From NCBI RefSeq assembly GCF_012516375.2, contig NZ_CP051204.2, positions 4,216,001-4,280,000 of the forward strand: a stretch of DNA of 64,000 nucleotides, given 5' to 3'. The notes under the pieces were generated by a model. The model was not told the origin of the DNA and ran no database searches. It saw only the letters and a program-made list of their open reading frames with translations. This DNA comes from Chitinophaga oryzae. Lineage in GTDB: Bacteria; Bacteroidota; Bacteroidia; Chitinophagales; Chitinophagaceae. A program made the position numbers and the translations under genes. Shown here in pieces: positions 5,488 through 61,481 of the stretch (positions are counted from its first letter, which is position 1; each line of letters begins with the position of its first letter).

Positions 5488-7443
5488 ATGCAACCATTAC
5501 CCGGTTTTCCATTGTACCGCTGTAGGCGGCTGTTGCTATGCATGCTGGTGTCGCTCCCTTTTGTGAGCCCCGCACAACAGCCTTCCGGACAACCTTATCC
5601 GGACAGCCTTCTGCAACTACTCCACTACCAGTCAAACAAAGCGGAAAAAGCGGAAATACTCTTCCAGCTATCACAATACTGGGCCGATCTGGACAGTGGC
5701 CGGGGCGTGACATATGCGAGGGAGGCGTTGAAATATATCCCGCATGATCCTTACCACGAAGGCCGCGGGCATTACTTCCTGGCCGGCGCTTTTTTTGAGT
5801 ATGATATTCCGCGGGCGCAACAGGAGTACCAGCAGGCCATACACCGGCTTGAACAGCGCAAGAGCAGAGAAGCTGTCCTGTTGCTTTCAAAAGCATGGCA
5901 CAACTACGGCGCCCTGGAACAACGTCAGGGCCGCGAAAAAAATTTCGCAGCAATACTGCTGAACAAGGTCGTACCGCTGGCCACACAGGCGGGCGATACG
6001 CTGCGCCTGGGCAATTACTACCTGAGCCTCAGCACCGTCTTTGATAATATTTTCGACTACAAGCGTGCCGCAACATACGCACTGCAGGCAGCCGCTGTTT
6101 TCAACCGGCAGCAGCCGGGCAGCGAATACCTGATAGCGTGTTACACTGCCGCCGCCACCAGCTGCCTGTCGCTCAACGATGCGGCTGCCTGTAAAATATA
6201 TCTCGACAGCGCCGCCGGTTATGTAAACCGGTATCCGGACTCTCGCCTTGGCCCTGCTTATTACCGCACTACGGGCAGGTATTACAATCATCAAAGGGCG
6301 TGGCCGCAGGCGTTGTCCCATCTTCGACAAGGCATACTACTCGCAGAGAACGTAAACCGGCCCTACGATGCGACCACCATCAAAATGGAGTTGTACCAGA
6401 CCTATAAGGCACAGGGGGCGTTGGATACCGCCCGGCAAATATTACTGGATATCTACCGCCGGCCTTATGTAAGAGAAATGCCGGAGAATATGCGGCTGAT
6501 ACTGCGGGAACTGGCCAGCACTGATTCTGCCCTGCACCGTCCGCAGGCAGCATATGACTGGTTACTGCAATACTCCAGCTTGACGGACACCCTGACGGAA
6601 CGCCAAACGCGACAACAAATCAGTGAACTGGAAGCGAAATACAATTATGCGGAGAAAGAAAAAGCGTTGTTGCTGGTGAAAGCCCATGCAGTCCGTCAGA
6701 AAATGTTGTTGTGGGGCATTATCTTCCTGTTGGTTCCCTTCTGTGTGGTATTGATATTTCTCTACCGGTCCCTAAGGAGCAAAGCCCTGCAGGCGCAACA
6801 GATAGCTATCGCGAAAGCGCTGTTATACGGAGAAGAGCGGGAACGAAGCCGGCTGGCGCGCGACCTGCATGACGGATTAGGCGGCACGCTGGCCAGTATC
6901 AGTATCCGCTTGTCGGAAGTTTCCGGCATTCCCGCCGGTCCGCTTGCACCCATCAGCCGCCAGTTGGACCTGGCAGTGAGTGAACTGCGGCGTATCGCGC
7001 ATAACATGGCGCCGGAGGCTCTTTTCCGGCTTGGGCTGCAAGCGGCATTACAGGACCTGAGCGAAACGCATTCCAACAGTCGTACGACGGTCACACTGCA
7101 GACGATGGATATCCGGGATGACCTGCCTCAACAGGTACAACTTATGATTTACCGTATTGTGCAGGAACTACTGACCAATATCACCAAACATGCAGCAGCC
7201 GGAGAAGTACTGATACAATGCAGTCAGCTGGATGACATGTTCTACATTACCGCAGAAGACAACGGCAAAGGCTTTTCAATGGCCGGGATACCGGCCGGCA
7301 AAGGTATCGGTATACAGAACATCCGGAACAGGGTAGCGTTCTTAAACGGTAAAATGGAGATACAATCCTCCCCGGGTAAAGGCACCATCATCAATATTGA
7401 ACTATCATGCAAACCAACAACACCATCTCCGTCATCGTTATAG
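5488..7443 (+). CDS. TPR-containing sensor histidine kinase (NarL/LuxR-type system, HisKA_3)
   Basis: I prefer the ATG at 5488 (MQPLPGFPLYRCRR), which begins a clean signal peptide ending near PAQQ; an in-frame ATG at 5455 is also possible. The periplasmic part is a string of TPR-like helical repeats, followed by one membrane helix (LLWGIIFLLVPFCVVLIFLY). The HisKA_3 dimerisation domain has phospho-acceptor His461 in RLARDLHDGLGG, and the HATPase domain shows the N box (ELLTNITKHA) and G boxes (DNGKGFS, GKGIGIQNIRNR). The 3' end overlaps the response-regulator gene by 37 bp, so the two form a translationally coupled two-component pair. The signal sensed is unknown. Confidence 0.9.
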   Translation: MQPLPGFPLYRCRRLLLCMLVSLPFVSPAQQPSGQPYPDSLLQLLHYQSNKAEKAEILFQLSQYWADLDSGRGVTYAREALKYIPHDPYHEGRGHYFLAGAFFEYDIPRAQQEYQQAIHRLEQRKSREAVLLLSKAWHNYGALEQRQGREKNFAAILLNKVVPLATQAGDTLRLGNYYLSLSTVFDNIFDYKRAATYALQAAAVFNRQQPGSEYLIACYTAAATSCLSLNDAAACKIYLDSAAGYVNRYPDSRLGPAYYRTTGRYYNHQRAWPQALSHLRQGILLAENVNRPYDATTIKMELYQTYKAQGALDTARQILLDIYRRPYVREMPENMRLILRELASTDSALHRPQAAYDWLLQYSSLTDTLTERQTRQQISELEAKYNYAEKEKALLLVKAHAVRQKMLLWGIIFLLVPFCVVLIFLYRSLRSKALQAQQIAIAKALLYGEERERSRLARDLHDGLGGTLASISIRLSEVSGIPAGPLAPISRQLDLAVSELRRIAHNMAPEALFRLGLQAALQDLSETHSNSRTTVTLQTMDIRDDLPQQVQLMIYRIVQELLTNITKHAAAGEVLIQCSQLDDMFYITAEDNGKGFSMAGIPAGKGIGIQNIRNRVAFLNGKMEIQSSPGKGTIINIELSCKPTTPSPSSL

Positions 7444-54526: not shown

Positions 54527-57500
54527 ATGAAAAAGACGTTCTGTCTTATTGCCATTCTCATGGCAATCACCCTCCTATTGCCTGCACAGCAGCGGCAGGT
54601 AACCGGGAAAGTGACGGGCAACAATGCGCCTGTCCCTTTTGCCACCGTCCAGCTTAAAGGAGCTGTTACCGGCACCACTACAGACCAGCAGGGAAATTTC
54701 AGGATATCCGTAACCGGTAAAGACGCCGTGCTCGTCGTCCGAAGCCTCGGCTACCTGTTGAAAGAAATACCTGTCGGAGAGGCTGCCACTATCAGCATCG
54801 ACCTGCAGCCGGATGACAAGACCATGCAGGAAGTAGTGGTGACTGCGCTCAACGTAAAGCGGGAAAAGAAATCACTGGGCTACTCCGTCCAGGAAGTAAA
54901 AGGTGCAGAACTCACCCAGTCGAAAGACGCCAATTTCATCAATGCACTCAGCGGAAAAGTAGCAGGCATACAGGTTACCGGATCTTCCGGCAATATGGGA
55001 GGATCTGCCAGGATCACCATCCGCGGTATCAACTCCATCTATGGCAACAACAACCCGCTGTTTGTGGTCGATGGCGTACCGATGGACAACAGCTTCTTTA
55101 CCGGCAACAATCCTACCAGCAGCCTTGACCAGGAACGCGGCCGCGGCGGATATGACTATGGCAACGCCATACAGGATATCAACCCCGCTGACATCGAATC
55201 CCTGTCCGTACTCAAAGGCGCTGCTGCTTCCGCCTTGTACGGCACCCGCGGTTCCAACGGCGTGATCGCCATCACCACCAAAAAGTCCAAATCAGGCGCC
55301 GCCAGCGGCATTGGCGTCACCTATAATTTTGGCGCACAGATGGAAAAAGTGTACATCATGCCGCAATACCAGGATGAATACGGTGGCGGTTATAAATTCA
55401 CCAAACTGTATGTAAAGGAACACCCGGAAGGATTCAAAGACGGCAAAGCCACCTATGACGATAACGATGGCAAAGGTCCGTACGACCTCGTTCCGGACTA
55501 TGAACCCGACGTATCCTGGGGACCACGGCTGGATGGCAGGCTCGTACGCCACTTCTGGTCATGGGACAAAAACAAACAAAACCCTGACTTCGGCATATCT
55601 GCCCCCTGGGAACCACATCCCAACAATAACCGCAGTTTCTTCGAAACCGGCCTGACGCTCACCAACAGTGTAGCCGTCACCGGTAGTAATGAGAAAGGCG
55701 CTTTCCGCCTGGCTTACACCAATCTTGACCAGAAATTCGTTCTACCCAACTCCAAACTCAAACGCAACTCTCTCAGCTTCAATGGCAACTATGCCATCTC
55801 CAGCCGGCTGGAAGCCTTTATCGGCGTCAATTACGCCAGCACCAATACCCTCGGCAGGCCCGGTACCGGCTACCACGGCAGGAACGTTATGCAGGGTTTC
55901 ACTGAATTCGGGCACCGCGACTGGGACATGGAGAAGATGAAAGACTACGCCTATGCATACGACGGGTCCCAACGTTCGTGGAACCGCGGCGCATGGGATG
56001 ATCAGCCGCCACGGTATACCGACAATCCCTACTGGACACGGTATAAAAACTACCAGACAGACCGGCGCGACCGCGTATTCGGCAACGCAGGCATCAACTT
56101 TAAACTCACCGACTACCTTACCGTTACCGGTAAATTTATGACCGACTTCTATACCGACAGCCGCCAGGAAAGAGTGGCCATCGGTTCCCAGGGCATCCCC
56201 TCTTACGTTGAAGCCACCCGTTTCGTAAAGGAAAACAACTACGAAGGACGTATCAACTTCAACAAATCCATCGGCACCCGCTTCTCCCTGACAGCCTTTG
56301 CAGGCATCAACAGAAGGGAAAACTATTTCAAATTCACCGGCGGTGAAAGCAAAGACGGGTTAAACATCGATGGCTGGTATAATCTCGCCAACTCACGCCA
56401 ACCCGCCCGTACGTACGACCGCGTGGAAAGGCTGCGTGAGAACGCCGTCTTCGGCAGCGCCTCGCTGGGCTACCAGGGCATGCTTTACCTTGACGTTACC
56501 GGCAGGAACGAATGGTCCAGCACCTTGCCGGCAGCCCACAACGCCTACTTCTTTCCATCTGTATCCGGGTCATTCGTCTTCTCCGAACTCAGCGGCCTGA
56601 AAAACACCCGCTGGCTGTCTTTCGGTAAACTCCGGCTGGGATGGGCGCAGGTAGGTAAAGGCACTATTCCTTACAGCACTGCGCTGGCCTACCTGGCAGA
56701 AGAGAACTTCGGTTCCACCGCCCACATCACCGTACCCGATCAACTGAACAATGCAAACATAAGACCTGAGATCACTACCGAAGTGGAAGCCGGCCTTGAA
56801 TTACGTTTCCTGCATAACCGGCTGGGCGTGGATTTCAGCGTATACGACAAAAAATCAAAAGACCAGATCATCCCGCTGACCATCTCCGCCTCTTCCGGTT
56901 ATACCACTGCCATCATCAATGCGGGGCTGATCAGGAATAAAGGGTTTGAACTGGCGCTCACAGGCACACCCGTGCAAACAAAGAGCGGGTTCACCTGGGA
57001 CCTGGGTTTCAACATCGCCCGCAACAAAAACAAAATCGAAAAACTGTACGACAATCCGGAGAAAGGCATCCGCGTGACCAACCTGCTGCTGGCCAACGCG
57101 CCCTTTGCCGTATCTGTGAATGCCCGCGAAGGCGAAACCTACGGCTCTATCGTTGGCTACGCCATTAAACGGGACGCCAACGGCAACAAACTGGTAGGCG
57201 CCGACGGCTTCTATATCAGGGACGCCAGCCAGTCGGTGCTGGGCAACGCGCTACCCGACTACACCGGTGGCTTCTCCTCCATGTGGAGCTATAAAGGTGT
57301 TTCACTGGGCGTCAATTTCGATTTCCAGATCGGCGGCCAGTATTTCTCCACCACCACCATGTTCGGCCGGCAATCCGGCCTCCTGGCGGAAACAGCAGAA
57401 AATGGCATCCGCGAAAACGGCACGGTGGCAGACGGGTATACAGAAGACGGCAAGAAAAATACGAAAGTCATATCCGCCTATGACCACTTCAATAACAACA

Positions 57501-57781
57501 ACGGATACGTGGTACAGGAACTCGACATGTGGGACGCCGGTTATCTCTATCTCAAAGAGATCAACCTGGGGTATACATTTGAGAAATCATTTGTGTCCGC
57601 CCTGCGGCTGCAGCACCTCCGCCTCTCCTTCTCTGCAAGGAACGTATGGCTGATCAGCACTGCCAACCCGCACCTCGATCCCACCAGCCTGGCCATATCC
57701 GCGGGCAACGTACAGGGCATTGAAGCCGCTGCGCTTCCCTCTGTACGCTCCTTCGGTGTTAACTTATCCGTTTCCTTCTAA
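54527..57781 (+). CDS. SusC/RagA-family TonB-dependent outer-membrane transporter, second pair
   Basis: The protein has 1084 residues. A signal peptide ends near LPAQQ. The carboxypeptidase-regulatory-like domain (RQVTGKVTGNNAPVPFATVQ), the plug (QEVVVTALNVKREKKSLGYS, then SALYGTRGSNGVIAITTKK) and the long TonB barrel with C-terminal FGVNLSVSF are complete. No STN domain. It pairs with the SusD gene 11 bp downstream. No glycosidase follows; instead a RiPP-like precursor and a metalloprotease do, so a peptide or protein ligand is as possible as a glycan. Confidence 0.96.
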   Translation: MKKTFCLIAILMAITLLLPAQQRQVTGKVTGNNAPVPFATVQLKGAVTGTTTDQQGNFRISVTGKDAVLVVRSLGYLLKEIPVGEAATISIDLQPDDKTMQEVVVTALNVKREKKSLGYSVQEVKGAELTQSKDANFINALSGKVAGIQVTGSSGNMGGSARITIRGINSIYGNNNPLFVVDGVPMDNSFFTGNNPTSSLDQERGRGGYDYGNAIQDINPADIESLSVLKGAAASALYGTRGSNGVIAITTKKSKSGAASGIGVTYNFGAQMEKVYIMPQYQDEYGGGYKFTKLYVKEHPEGFKDGKATYDDNDGKGPYDLVPDYEPDVSWGPRLDGRLVRHFWSWDKNKQNPDFGISAPWEPHPNNNRSFFETGLTLTNSVAVTGSNEKGAFRLAYTNLDQKFVLPNSKLKRNSLSFNGNYAISSRLEAFIGVNYASTNTLGRPGTGYHGRNVMQGFTEFGHRDWDMEKMKDYAYAYDGSQRSWNRGAWDDQPPRYTDNPYWTRYKNYQTDRRDRVFGNAGINFKLTDYLTVTGKFMTDFYTDSRQERVAIGSQGIPSYVEATRFVKENNYEGRINFNKSIGTRFSLTAFAGINRRENYFKFTGGESKDGLNIDGWYNLANSRQPARTYDRVERLRENAVFGSASLGYQGMLYLDVTGRNEWSSTLPAAHNAYFFPSVSGSFVFSELSGLKNTRWLSFGKLRLGWAQVGKGTIPYSTALAYLAEENFGSTAHITVPDQLNNANIRPEITTEVEAGLELRFLHNRLGVDFSVYDKKSKDQIIPLTISASSGYTTAIINAGLIRNKGFELALTGTPVQTKSGFTWDLGFNIARNKNKIEKLYDNPEKGIRVTNLLLANAPFAVSVNAREGETYGSIVGYAIKRDANGNKLVGADGFYIRDASQSVLGNALPDYTGGFSSMWSYKGVSLGVNFDFQIGGQYFSTTTMFGRQSGLLAETAENGIRENGTVADGYTEDGKKNTKVISAYDHFNNNNGYVVQELDMWDAGYLYLKEINLGYTFEKSFVSALRLQHLRLSFSARNVWLISTANPHLDPTSLAISAGNVQGIEAAALPSVRSFGVNLSVSF

Positions 57782-57792
57782 AAAGCTAAGCC

Positions 57793-59271
57793 ATGAAAAA
57801 AACAATATTTAAAGCGCTGTGCTTCGCGTCGGTAGTGGTGCTCCTGCTGGCAGGCTGTACTAAAAAATTCGATGAGATCAACCTGGACCCGAATAACCCG
57901 AAAACAACCGACCCCGGCTACCTGCTGGTCTCCGCCGAGAAAAAAGCCGTAGACAACATCTGGAACGAATGGAACAACGGCCGTACCGGCATGCACTACG
58001 CCCAGTACTGGTCCGCCACCACTTACTCCAACGAAAGCCGCTACCAGATCCGTGAAAACCAGAACAACAACTTCTGGAACATCCTGTACGCCGGCACCAT
58101 CAAAGACCTCAACGAGATCATCAGGATCAATACCGAAAAACCTTTCGATTACTCCCCCAACCAGATAGCCATCGCCGAAATCTTAAAAGTGTGGACCTAC
58201 CATATGCTGGTGGACGTATATGAAGACATTCCCTACAAATCTTCCCTGGGCGGCCTCGACCGGCCTAATAGTCCATACGACAAGGCTATCACCATCTATA
58301 CTGATCTGCTGAAAATACTCGGTGAGCAGGCGGCAAAACTGGACCCGTCCAAAGGTTCTTTCCCCGCCAAAACAGATATCATCTACAACGGCGATGTCAA
58401 TAAGTGGAAACGTTTTGCCAACTCTCTCCGGCTGCGTATAGCGATCCGCGTGAGTGACGTTCCCTCTTTACAGCCACTCGTCAAACAGGCTATCAACGAC
58501 GCCGTGGCCTCCGGGGTATTTACTTCCAACGCAGACAATGCCCTGTTCCGGTATGTGGAAGCGCCGCCGAACAATAATCCGCTGAACGAGGCTTTCAAAT
58601 CGCGTATTGATTTCTGTATGTGCAAAACCATGGTAGACTACATGCTCGATATCAAAGATCCCCGGCTGCCTGTTTACGCAGCGCCGGCGAAAGACAACGG
58701 CAGGTATATCGGTAAGGCATATGGCCTGAACCAGCAAAACGGGGAAACCATCCCCAACAGCGCCATATCCCTGCCCGGCAGCGCTGTGCTGGACGCCAAA
58801 GCCCCGGCTGTTTACATGGATTACGCCGAAGTGGAGTTCATCCTTGCCGAAGCCATAGAACGCAACATCATCAGCGGTTCCGCCGAAGAGCATTATAAAA
58901 AAGGAATCAGGGCTTCCCTGGAAGACCGCGGCGTCGCCGCTTCCGCTATCGATCCTTATATTGCCGGCGTTCCCTATAACGGGGGCGACTGGAAGAACGT
59001 GATCGGTACGCAAAAGTGGATCGCTCTGTACATGCAGGGCCTGGAAGGCTGGTTCGAAAGGCTGCGCCTCGACTTCAAAAAGCCGGATGGACAAGCACTG
59101 TTCGTAGCGCCCGTTGATGGCTCCCTCGACCGCGAAGTCACTGTTGTGCCTACCCGCATGACCTACCCCGTAGACGAACAACAGCTGAACAAAAGCAACT
59201 ACGACAAAGCGGTCCAGTCCATCGGCGGCAAAGACAGCAAGGCCGCAAAACACTTCTGGGACCTTTATTAA
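57793..59271 (+). CDS. SusD-like outer-membrane lipoprotein, second pair
   Basis: The protein has 492 residues. The lipoprotein signal ends VVVLLLAGC with the Cys at residue 22. The mature start TKKFDEINLDPNNPKTTDPG and inner motifs (AEILKVWTYHMLVDVYEDIP, YAEVEFILAEAIERNI, QKWIALYMQGLEGWFERLRL) identify the SusD-like_2 / SusD-RagB group. It should cap the SusC channel encoded directly upstream and bind its ligand. Confidence 0.94.
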   Translation: MKKTIFKALCFASVVVLLLAGCTKKFDEINLDPNNPKTTDPGYLLVSAEKKAVDNIWNEWNNGRTGMHYAQYWSATTYSNESRYQIRENQNNNFWNILYAGTIKDLNEIIRINTEKPFDYSPNQIAIAEILKVWTYHMLVDVYEDIPYKSSLGGLDRPNSPYDKAITIYTDLLKILGEQAAKLDPSKGSFPAKTDIIYNGDVNKWKRFANSLRLRIAIRVSDVPSLQPLVKQAINDAVASGVFTSNADNALFRYVEAPPNNNPLNEAFKSRIDFCMCKTMVDYMLDIKDPRLPVYAAPAKDNGRYIGKAYGLNQQNGETIPNSAISLPGSAVLDAKAPAVYMDYAEVEFILAEAIERNIISGSAEEHYKKGIRASLEDRGVAASAIDPYIAGVPYNGGDWKNVIGTQKWIALYMQGLEGWFERLRLDFKKPDGQALFVAPVDGSLDREVTVVPTRMTYPVDEQQLNKSNYDKAVQSIGGKDSKAAKHFWDLY

Positions 59272-59434
59272 TAAACTTTTGAGGATATAGAGACGGTCAT
59301 GAAAAAAGGTCGGTTTTCGCAGGAAGGCCGGCCTCTTGTTTTCAGCAAGCATTAACCTCTCAGAAATTACGATGCGCTGAAAATCACCCATGGCGCGGAA
59401 GACAGGGTGGAATCATCTTTTAAATCTTAATGTT

Positions 59435-59608
59435 ATGAAAAAGAAAATGTCATTGAACAAAAAACTAACACTGGCCAAAAACACCGTAGGAGTTATGACC
59501 GGCTACCAGCAGGCAGCCATCAAAGGGGGCCGTCTCACCACTATCGGGAGAACATGCCAGGTGACTACCGGCTGCCCGGTAGCGCCTGAATACCCGGGCC
59601 TCGGCTGA
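59435..59608 (+). CDS. Putative class I lanthipeptide precursor peptide
   Basis: The ATG at 59435 gives 57 residues. The first part, MKKKMSLNKKLTLAKNTVGV followed by MTGYQQAAIKGG, is the Bacteroidota lanthipeptide-type leader: a lysine-rich LNKK start, the QQ/AAIKGG end and a double-glycine cleavage site at residues 31-32. The 25-residue core (RLTTIGRTCQVTTGCPVAPE, then YPGLG) holds two Cys (41, 47) and five Thr, suitable for lanthionine rings. No LanB, LanC or peptidase-containing transporter gene is in the window, so any maturation enzymes are elsewhere or absent. It is followed at once by its own terminator. Confidence 0.75.
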   Translation: MKKKMSLNKKLTLAKNTVGVMTGYQQAAIKGGRLTTIGRTCQVTTGCPVAPEYPGLG

Positions 59609-59613
59609 CAAAA

Positions 59614-59663
59614 CAACGGAAACCGCCGCCTGCGTGGTTTCCGTTGCATTATTTTCTTTCTTA
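59614..59663 (+). terminator. Terminator of the lanthipeptide precursor gene
   Basis: CAACGGAAACC (59614-59624) and GGTTTCCGTTG (59636-59646) form an 11-bp stem starting 5 bp after the stop codon, followed by a T-rich tract (cattattttctttctt). Confidence 0.85.
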
Positions 59664-59696
59664 AAATAATATACCCGACAAATAGAAACTATTCCT

Positions 59697-59704
59697 TATT
59701 TTTG
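59697..59704 (+). promoter_or_regulatory. -7 element upstream of the metalloprotease gene
   Basis: TATTTTTG is a perfect TAnnTTTG match, 193 bp before the start at 59898. No clear -33 element was found. The leader would contain a 12-codon frame and a small ACCGGC/GCCGGT hairpin. Confidence 0.4.
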
Positions 59705-59897
59705 AACGGAACAATGAATACCAGTCATAGCAAAAGACCGGCTGGCCGGTAAACGCCCGCTTTCTGTTATTGGCTATTTACCCTTCCTCCTGTGTTTCAC
59801 GCTAACAGATTTTCCCATTACACAACAGAAAAACCCTTTGGTACGATGTAAACATACTATCTGATAAACCTTTATTCTTCATCCAAAACAGTAAACA

Positions 59898-61481
59898 ATG
59901 ACCAAAATCGCTCCTCTCCTGGTGGTGGCCACCGTATTGGCCATGGCAATCACCAGCTGTCAGAAACAACCCGAATCCACTCCCCTTGAGAAAATGGACG
60001 CCAAAAAATCATCGGTGGCCGTCAATGGCGTAGCCAATGGCACCTATATGCTCAACGTTGTCTATTTCGTTCCATCCGACCTCGATACCGTTCCGGGATA
60101 CCGGGAAAGGCTAAACGGGGTATTCCTGTATATGCAGCAGTTCACCACCAAATGGATGAACCAGTGGGGATATGCCGGCAGAACAATAGGACTGCAGACA
60201 GATTCCGCCGGCCGGTTGAAAATATCGCTGGTCCGCGGACAGCAGGGCAAAAGCAGCTATCCTTACGAAGGCGGTTCCGGCGCCGTGATGAATGAAGTAA
60301 ACGCCTATTTCGCCGCTCATCCGGCCGAGAAAAAAAGTGACCATATCATGGTGATCATTCCCACCTATTCCTATGGCGCCAACGGAGATCCCAGCGGCGG
60401 GCCATTCTACGGAATCGGCCGCTGGTGCTTTGCGCTCGACTACACCGGCCTGGATACGATCAACCTGGGAAAACCGGATGATAAATTCTCTACCAAATGG
60501 ATAGGCGGCATGGCACATGAGATGGGCCACGGTATTAATCTCCCGCACAACGGCGGCGCCCAGTCGCAAAATATCCTGTATGGCACCACGCTGATGGGTT
60601 ACGGCAACGGCACTTTAGGTAAAGCGCCTACTTATTTTTCACCGGCGGATGTCGCCATCCTGGCCAATGGCCAGCTATTCAGTCCCGTTACGCGGAGCGA
60701 CTGGTACACAGATCCCGGCTGCCAGGTGAAACGGGTATATGCGGAGTATAACAGCGGTTCCGCCAGTATTATCGTCTCCGGCAAATTTTCGGCTGCCAAA
60801 GCGGTGAAGGATATCGCTTATTACAACCGCAACACCGGTAACGATAATGGCGGCTACAACTCGGTTACCTTTGCCTCCAAGCCGATAGGCACCGACAGTT
60901 TTCGTATCGCCATGCCCGTGAGCGACTTCAGGGACAAGGGCAATACAAACTATGAATTTACTATCCGGCTATGCCATGAAAACGGTAGTATCACCAGTTA
61001 TGTGGCCTCCTACAGCTTTGTCAACGACGTCCCTGTTGTCAACTTCGGGGATAAAGTGGTATACGATAAAACCGGGTGGACAGTAACCGCTTTCAGTTCG
61101 GAGGAAACAGCCGCGGAAAACGGCGCCGCCGCCAATATCATCGATGGCTCCGGCAGCAGCTTCTGGCACTCGCGGTGGTCTTCCGCTGCGGCCAGCTATC
61201 CGCACACCATCACCATCGATATGGGACAGGCGCTGGACGTAAACCGGTTTACATTTAAACAGCGGAGCAGCAGAATGGTAAAAGACATACAAATCCTGAG
61301 CAGCAATAACAACACCACCTGGACGCCGATCGGCACTTTCACGCTGGCGGCCACCACCAACCCGCAGAACATCGTTCTTCCTTCCACCAAAAACTTCCGT
61401 TATTTCAGGCTGAATATGACCAGTTCCTATGATGGCGAACAGTTTGCCGCCATGTGTGAGGTGGGCACCTATAAAGACTGA
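59898..61481 (+). CDS. Metzincin-like zinc metalloprotease lipoprotein with C-terminal discoidin domain
   Basis: The protein has 527 residues. The signal MTKIAPLLVVATVLAMAITSC ends in a lipobox Cys. The protease half has HEMGHGINLPH at residues 207-217: HExxH with zinc ligands His207 and His211, Glu208 as base and His217 as third ligand, a metzincin layout, although the usual Gly is Asn. A Met-turn candidate is TTLMGYGNG. The C-terminal 130 residues (HSRWSSAAASYPHTITIDMG, then QRSSRMVKDIQILSSNNNTT) are an F5/8-type C (discoidin) module that binds glycans or surfaces. It is likely an outer-membrane-anchored protease. It lies one terminator away from the lanthipeptide precursor. Confidence 0.85.
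   Translation: MTKIAPLLVVATVLAMAITSCQKQPESTPLEKMDAKKSSVAVNGVANGTYMLNVVYFVPSDLDTVPGYRERLNGVFLYMQQFTTKWMNQWGYAGRTIGLQTDSAGRLKISLVRGQQGKSSYPYEGGSGAVMNEVNAYFAAHPAEKKSDHIMVIIPTYSYGANGDPSGGPFYGIGRWCFALDYTGLDTINLGKPDDKFSTKWIGGMAHEMGHGINLPHNGGAQSQNILYGTTLMGYGNGTLGKAPTYFSPADVAILANGQLFSPVTRSDWYTDPGCQVKRVYAEYNSGSASIIVSGKFSAAKAVKDIAYYNRNTGNDNGGYNSVTFASKPIGTDSFRIAMPVSDFRDKGNTNYEFTIRLCHENGSITSYVASYSFVNDVPVVNFGDKVVYDKTGWTVTAFSSEETAAENGAAANIIDGSGSSFWHSRWSSAAASYPHTITIDMGQALDVNRFTFKQRSSRMVKDIQILSSNNNTTWTPIGTFTLAATTNPQNIVLPSTKNFRYFRLNMTSSYDGEQFAAMCEVGTYKD

Follow-up and report, generated by a model that had tools for sequence, protein, structure and literature searches.

A probable class I lanthipeptide precursor of Chitinophaga oryzae, likely modified in trans by an unlinked enzyme set and preceded by a candidate cis-regulatory pseudoknot

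We analyzed a 64,000-nt stretch of the genome of Chitinophaga oryzae (hereafter, the window; C1:4216001-4280000 of a single 8.36 Mb contig), in which a small gene lies between a SusC/SusD pair and a protease gene (Table 1). The original prediction, made from the sequence, described this gene as a lanthipeptide-type precursor of 57 residues, with an AAIKGG leader end, a Thr/Cys core and a terminator of its own, following SusC/SusD and preceding a metzincin. The open reading frame and its translation (leader, MKKKMSLNKKLTLAKNTVGVMTGYQQAAIKGG; core, RLTTIGRTCQVTTGCPVAPEYPGLG) are as described. SusD upstream is supported by its domain match, and the protein encoded downstream contains, along with an F5/8 type C domain, an HExxHGxxxxH motif, which we take to be that of the metzincins. 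The hairpin behind the gene is real as well (13 pairs, -21 kcal/mol, z -4.46), although its T-tract is weak. The leader matches the NCBIfam family NF038153 ('class I lanthipeptide', lant_leader_L1a) with 31.2 bits (E 1.9e-7), over the curated cut-off of 22 bits, in agreement with the predicted lanthipeptide leader; the ortholog P0003 scores slightly under this cut-off (20.6 bits).

Table 1. Features of the peptide locus and related precursor loci (positions refer to the window unless a locus or contig is named)
Feature	Position	Strand	Basis or remark
Class I lanthipeptide precursor, 57 aa: leader 1-32 (ends KGG), core 33-57 = RLTTIGRTCQVTTGCPVAPEYPGLG	59435..59608	+	NF038153
Conserved upstream element, candidate cis-regulatory RNA, H-type pseudoknot	59373..59413	+	covariance models R1, R2
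Pseudoknot stem S1, 5' strand (GCGCU), pairs with 59392-59396	59374..59378	+	covariation
Pseudoknot stem S1, 3' strand (GGCGC), pairs with 59374-59378	59392..59396	+	covariation
Stem S2, 5' strand, pairs with 59405-59410	59384..59389	+	covariation
Stem S2, 3' strand, pairs with 59384-59389	59405..59410	+	covariation
Intrinsic-terminator-like hairpin of the peptide gene, T-tract weak	59614..59646	+	13 pairs, folding
Terminator-like hairpin between SusD and the peptide gene	59307..59334	+	hairpin scan
SusC/SusD and protease locus	54527-61481		precursor cassettes at differing places in five species
Two more GG-type precursors	L009:6565-6741, 6800-6985 (C1:4280564, 4280799)		beginning 0.56 kb beyond the window
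Array of nine GG-type precursors	L011:9903-12027		no LanB, LanC or C39 nearby; no element copy

The leader motif of Bacteroidota class I lanthipeptides, LxLxKx5L, as given in the available part of the source (PMC7268733), is fitted by L11-T-L13-A-K15-NTVGV-M21 except for the final Leu, which is replaced by Met. The core contains five Thr and two Cys; the lipid II motif of nisin and gallidermin, SxxxCTP(G/S)C (PMC7268733, available part), is absent from the peptide core, TTIGRTCQVTTGC. An alternative in-frame ATG at 59390 would yield 72 residues, but we place the start at 59435 because the relatives P0002-P0004 begin there and because 59390 falls within the upstream element. Besides the window's own sequence, a protein search returned these three relatives, P0002 at 84%, P0003 of Chitinophaga eiseniae at 77%, and P0004 at 68% over 72% of the query, and a scan of named genomes with the peptide (P0001) returned one record, from Chitinophaga fulva. 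Pfam produced no match over cut-off for the peptide or for eight relatives, and PF28317.1, a precomputed domain of P0004, was set aside, the Pfam scan of P0004 not having returned it. As judged from these sequence features, the small gene probably encodes the precursor of a secreted, ring-containing peptide.

In another Chitinophaga genome (G013), the orthologous gene comprises 57 codons with 33 base differences, without indel or stop. Estimated from this one species pair, dN is 0.156, dS 0.483 and dN/dS 0.32 for the whole gene, and these values, along with the intact frame of the ortholog, support its coding status. The dN and dS are 0.190 and 0.836 for the leader and 0.112 and 0.246 for the core, whereas dN for the neighboring SusD, protease and AraC genes is 0.024-0.047. 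On this comparison of sequences, the reading frame is constrained, yet evolving faster than the neighboring genes. The start of the core, RLTTIG(R/K)TC, is retained in our genome (G000) and in G013, G050, G019, G077 and G076, while the leaders diverge; the same start occurs in P0002, with H for R, and in P0004, after a leader end without GG, and the remainder of the core varies among the genomes and relatives that share it. A precursor from a second genus (G300, L087) has ATIGRIC after GG. In the ortholog comparison, Thr44 is retained where Thr45 is not. Ring B of nisin is a TxxC ring, and by analogy a similar ring is possible in the peptide core; Thr44 would likely pair with Cys47, and Thr35 or Thr36 with Cys41.

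These data bear directly on the reading that the peptide is a stray precursor, no longer modified and heading for loss, the conservation of which reflects recent common descent. Such a fate would be compatible with the 77% identity of the peptide to its ortholog, compared to 90-97% for SusC, SusD, the protease and AraC, and with a dN several times that of the last three. However, given that dN/dS is 0.32 with the frame intact, that the core (dN 0.11) is more constant than the leader (dN 0.19), that the first core motif persists in six genomes, and that the ortholog retains both the upstream element and the terminator stem (in the alignment, with a diverged loop), we consider this very unlikely.

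Because a terminator-like hairpin separates SusD from the peptide gene, the latter looks like a separate cassette; the stretch containing this hairpin (59307-59334) aligns with two species whose SusD-protease junction has no peptide gene, as the alignment shows for G019 and G077. The gene order in G013 is identical to ours (SusC-SusD-peptide-protease-AraC-SDR-two precursors). In G019, G077 and G076, the same SusC has a peptide relative 4-6 kb before it and the other two precursors directly before it. Since precursors sit at different places around the same SusC/SusD pair, the cassettes seem to move locally. The persistence of precursors within about 10 kb of this pair in five species despite differing gene order could mean that the peptide serves the adjacent SusC/SusD-protease locus, for example, as cargo or signal, rather than being a general secreted lanthipeptide. 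Yet, in a sixth species (L081), the relative resides at another site, and in two species, as noted, the SusD-protease junction lacks the peptide gene. SusC/SusD pairs are very common in such genomes, so nearness to one is weak evidence, and we regard a role tied to this locus as highly improbable.

The original prediction further held that no lan enzyme is encoded in the window, and suggested that the peptide might be modified in trans by an unlinked enzyme set. A whole-genome check for lanB, lanC and C39 genes and for precursors with the same leader, set beforehand, found both elsewhere: all matches to LanB (PF04738), LanC (PF05147) and C39 (PF03412) fall outside the window, with LanB N-terminal domains at about 2.87-2.88, 5.85 and 6.46 Mb, LANC_like matches at six places in the genome, and C39 matches at nine. 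NF038153 has 28 matches in the genome at E below 1 (a 29th, with E 3.9, is left out of the count), 27 of them over the cut-off. Eighteen closely similar GG-type precursors, aligned as set A1, are distributed over five loci: five at 5.85 Mb, nine at 4.755 Mb, two at 4.2806-4.2808 Mb, one at 371 kb, and ours at 4.275 Mb. Among these, only the 5.85 Mb locus also carries LanC-LanB-C39 genes, in an operon ordered as five precursors, LanC, LanB and C39-ABC; the other four have no LanB, LanC or C39 match nearby, and neither do three further GG-ending precursors at 3.786 Mb, left out of A1. LanB and LanC are, then, present in the same genome and absent from the peptide's own gene cluster, which lies 1.58 Mb from the GG-type LanB/LanC set at 5.85 Mb. 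Within the genome, the sequences most closely related to the peptide are the two precursors that head the 5.85 Mb operon, with 59% and 47% identity.

The LanB encoded at 5.85 Mb matches NisB and other dehydratases of solved structure, and is 41% identical to the 2.87 Mb LanB. The adjoining LanC matches the LanC-like protein 8byk (E 2.7e-15) and, weakly, NisC (E 8.9e-4); inspection of its sequence by eye revealed the C-gap-CH pattern, described as the zinc triad of LanC in the available part of PMC10352776. Two other loci have different compositions. L016 (about 9.3-11.1 kb) has two precursors and then a LanC-like gene but no nearby LanB match, perhaps another trans system, and L015 (7.6-15 kb) encodes a split LanB (843 aa and a 287-aa ORF), a LanC-like protein and a C39 transporter, with no NF038153 match nearby.

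We examined the co-distribution of precursors and enzymes in 79 congeneric genomes. Twenty of these contain a P0001 match at E ≤ 1e-3; 56 contain a match to the 5.85 Mb LanB at E ≤ 1e-60, but its identity reaches 56% or more in 20, with 43% as the highest value below that. Comparison of the two tables by reading shows that the 20 genomes with this LanB are the same 20 that carry P0001-like precursors. The chance of such agreement, 1/C(79,20) = 3.8e-19, ignores kinship and is not to be taken at face value: because many of the matches are inside the LanB cluster and the genomes are related, the agreement is far weaker than 20 independent cases. The 150 matches listed for the A1 profile (E up to 3.3e-19) all come from genomes with this LanB, 65 of them within 20 kb of it and 85 not. 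Among the matches listed, at least 11 of 19 genomes have an unlinked precursor, with those on another contig than LanB counted as unlinked, draft-genome contigs included, and G061 has no listed match; a real LanB-precursor distance is available for the one-contig genomes G000 and G060 and, on the same contig, for G018 and G030. Six of the 59 genomes without this LanB contain one to four weaker A1 matches each (best E 1.9e-9).

Modification by another lan set of the same genome, either the 2.87 Mb LanB/LanC or the 6.46 Mb split-LanB/LanC/C39, would also account for an orphan precursor: both sets exist, and the one at 6.46 Mb includes a C39 transporter. However, the precursors that adjoin the 2.87 Mb LanB lack a GG leader and a P0001 match at E ≤ 10, and 36 of the 79 genomes carry a LanB at E ≤ 1e-60 but below 56% identity, none of these 36 having a P0001-like precursor (E ≤ 1e-3). 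We therefore deem this alternative distinctly unlikely.

Beyond the genus, in 394 evenly drawn genomes of the family, with at most 15 candidates scored per genome, the A1 profile at E ≤ 1e-8 identified at least four genomes, our own and three of another genus. With up to 150 candidates scored in each of four genomes of this second genus, G300, G079 and G178 yielded 45, 33 and 61 precursor matches (E ≤ 1e-5), respectively, on many contigs, with LanB present, and G250, which has no LanB, yielded 0. Among the second-genus precursors (L087-L116, L131-L190), those read possess cores rich in Cys and Thr, in several cases long. The LanB of G300 belongs to the clade of the 5.85 Mb LanB (56-58% identity); the nearest LanBs of G079 and G178 fall outside it (39-42%, in a quick tree with long-branch warnings), and are adjoined by a C39 transporter 76-77% identical to ours. 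Because these two LanBs lie outside the clade, the link of the precursors may be to GG-serving LanBs in general. Relatives of the leader accordingly occur in other genomes with lan genes, both in the 20 of 79 congeneric genomes and in the second genus, one of the outcomes on which the original prediction had been staked. Its suggestion of an unlinked enzyme set acting in trans is supported by the leader match, the sole locus combining GG-type precursors with LanC-LanB-C39, the 79-genome agreement and the second genus.

Comparison of the regions upstream of the peptide gene, of the first member in the 4.28 Mb pair, and of two 5.85 Mb operon precursors, including the head one, drew attention to a 41-nt element that had escaped the original prediction. 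It ends 21 nt before the start codon of the peptide gene. Its consensus, nCGCUGAAnAnCCGCCCCAUGGCG-variable-AAAGACAGGGGAGG, is fitted by two interleaved helices, S1 (CGCU/GGCG) and S2 (CCCC/GGGG and outer pairs), with five and six pairs, respectively, in the copy before the peptide gene. The first collection, made by a rule that requires pairing, comprised 40 distinct sites, 35 of which precede precursors, with 1 hit in 1.82 Mb of reversed/complemented control; pairing counts on this set would be circular and hence are not used as proof. On the same set, RNAalifold, which cannot draw pseudoknots, returned four S2 pairs only.

Collection by sequence anchors located the element at 51 of 287 precursor-like genes (190 loci), a total that includes operon-internal genes and near-copies from related species; 49 sites are unique, and removal of a spurious one (L107) leaves 48. 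The outer pair of S1 and the first four pairs of S2 played no part in the selection of these sites. The S1 outer pair is C-G in 31, A-U in 8 and U-A in 7 of the 49 sites, and is paired in 98% compared to 59% in shuffles (maximum 76%); the first four S2 pairs are paired in 98% compared to 87% (maximum 91%), the shuffle figures including L107. The next pair outwards is formed in 76% for S1 and 41% for S2. In the 48-row alignment, 41 cells show changes in both partners, compared to 9.4 in shuffles, and sliding the structure by 1-3 columns reduces pairing from 97.4% to 35-56%. The three inner S1 pairs constitute no proof because the anchors fix or nearly fix them, and kinship among the sites inflates all the covariation counts. 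There are 33 distinct loop segments, 24 with 12 nt or more; as a group, these long segments fold with a mean of -1.27 kcal/mol, compared to -0.52 in shuffles (0/200 as low), although 9 of these 24 form no fold by themselves and one reaches -8.6, so that an optional third hairpin in the loop is likely but not certain. The distance from the 3' strand of S2 to the start codon is mostly 28-31 nt. On this pattern of substitutions, the element fits a predicted H-type pseudoknot with compensatory changes.

The element is compact and strongly conserved in sequence, which would suit a DNA site for a regulator as well. A sigma-70 scan yielded a single promoter-like site, on the opposite strand, no more than expected by chance. 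TAnnTTTG is a promoter motif of Bacteroidota, and none was found in the 220 nt upstream of any of the 18 precursors, so transcription of the element is an assumption. Nevertheless, the compensatory changes between the strands of two interleaved helices, the better-than-shuffled folding of the long loops as a group and the restricted distance to the start codon argue for an RNA structure, and we consider a DNA site unlikely.

Covariance models were used to assess the specificity of the element. Model R1 (S2 and sequence, 48 rows, with the peptide-gene copy in the training set) produced a single strong match in the window, at 59373-59413 (44.8 bits; next, 11.8), and model R2 (26 rows), from which both this peptide family and the second genus were excluded, recovered the same position (32.8 bits, E 6.3e-6; next, 12.8) and also detects second-genus copies. 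Across 675 kb in 61 loci, selected for the most part around lan genes, each of the 18 matches with E below 1e-4 precedes a lanthipeptide precursor; in 40 spaced 20-kb stretches of our genome away from lan loci (800 kb), the best score was 14.4 bits. Seven of the 28 precursors in our genome carry the element, namely, ours and those at 4280564 (68.2 bits), 5858249, 5857225, 2039119, 1118388 and 1118650, the last two with another leader type; none of the nine array genes at 4.755 Mb does. Among six genes of the peptide core family with context, the element is full in G000, G013, G019 and G050, partial in G076, and missing in G077. It also precedes orphan non-GG precursors at L018 (9.4-9.7 kb) and L019 (9.0-9.3 kb), two of them of the KKLQLAKxKIAxLN type, and therefore is not tied to the GG leader.

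A search of Rfam 15 (4227 models) identified no family at gathering scores and, for six loci at E ≤ 5, none on the strand of the element; rli40, over one copy, was dismissed as lying on the opposite strand, with 22.2 of 100 bits, far under the gathering score. Three viral-contig matches to a DNA pattern of the element, all the same DNA, are attributed to chance, given that the element model finds nothing there, and a second DNA pattern gave no viral-contig match. The preQ1-I, SAM-II and fluoride riboswitches are H-type pseudoknots, and the element resembles them in its interleaved helices and conserved loop letters shortly before the start codon; unlike these riboswitches, it belongs to no Rfam 15 family and occurs, in the DNA searched, only before lanthipeptide precursors. 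Because it precedes the enzyme operon as well, we propose that it is most likely a cis-regulatory RNA co-ordinating the dispersed precursors with that operon.

Taken together, these observations make it probable that the gene is a working class I precursor cassette, modified in trans by the 5.85 Mb set and equipped with a cis-regulatory pseudoknot. The leader, with its LxLxKx5L-like motif and GG end, would be recognized by the LanB-LanC-C39 set at 5.85 Mb, which would also serve the other 17 closely similar precursors of the five loci. By family knowledge, LanB would dehydrate Thr residues of the core, LanC would close the rings, and the C39 transporter would cut after Gly32 and export a 25-residue product. 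The pseudoknot would govern early transcription or the initiation of translation in concert with the lan operon, so that the dispersed precursors and their enzymes would answer to one signal. More doubtfully, the pseudoknot may represent a new ligand- or protein-responsive class of RNA for lanthipeptide production, which would sense one pathway signal and switch on a scattered subset of precursors along with the LanB-LanC-transporter operon; some Chitinophagaceae might thus process the products of up to about 60 genes, a combinatorial class I library, with one or few enzyme sets.

The available part of PMC7268733 describes Bacteroidota class I lanthipeptides that have C39 and LxLxKx5L leaders, GG-terminated in many cases, and PedA15.2 of Pedobacter lusitanus is one such lanthipeptide (PMC12328550, available part). 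The system described here resembles these in leader type, GG end, C39 protease, LanB and LanC; unlike the clusters covered in those texts, its precursors are spread over the genome, some with a common upstream element. In Prochlorococcus and Synechococcus, scattered precursors of prochlorosins are modified by one promiscuous enzyme, ProcM (PMC10783134, available part). As in that case, there are many precursors here with similar leaders and very different cores, scattered over the genome (18 at five loci), but the prochlorosins, as portrayed there, involve a class II LanM and Nif11-type leaders, compared to a class I LanB with separate LanC, an L1a leader and another phylum here. We infer from the sequences that this system would be a class I counterpart of the prochlorosins, with modification in trans. 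The pinensins of Chitinophaga pinensis (PMC9248904, available part) are lantibiotics from the genus of our peptide, compared with it here by genus and peptide type only. Class I GG leaders with C39 in Bacteroidetes and precursor dispersal for the class II prochlorosins are thus already published, as far as the accessible texts extend; we encountered no account of class I precursor dispersal in Chitinophaga in the literature, which for Pedobacter lusitanus was covered in part. The RNA-like element is the most novel part, its novelty being judged against Rfam 15 alone.

Mining for class I lanthipeptides by proximity to lanB/lanC would miss most such precursors in this genome, including the peptide analyzed here, and the element provides a sequence handle for finding further ones. 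A natural class I set, in which one enzyme system would act on many unlinked substrates, would allow leader-guided promiscuity to be studied beyond ProcM. If the element is a riboswitch, it would offer a direct route to the signal that triggers production of these peptides.
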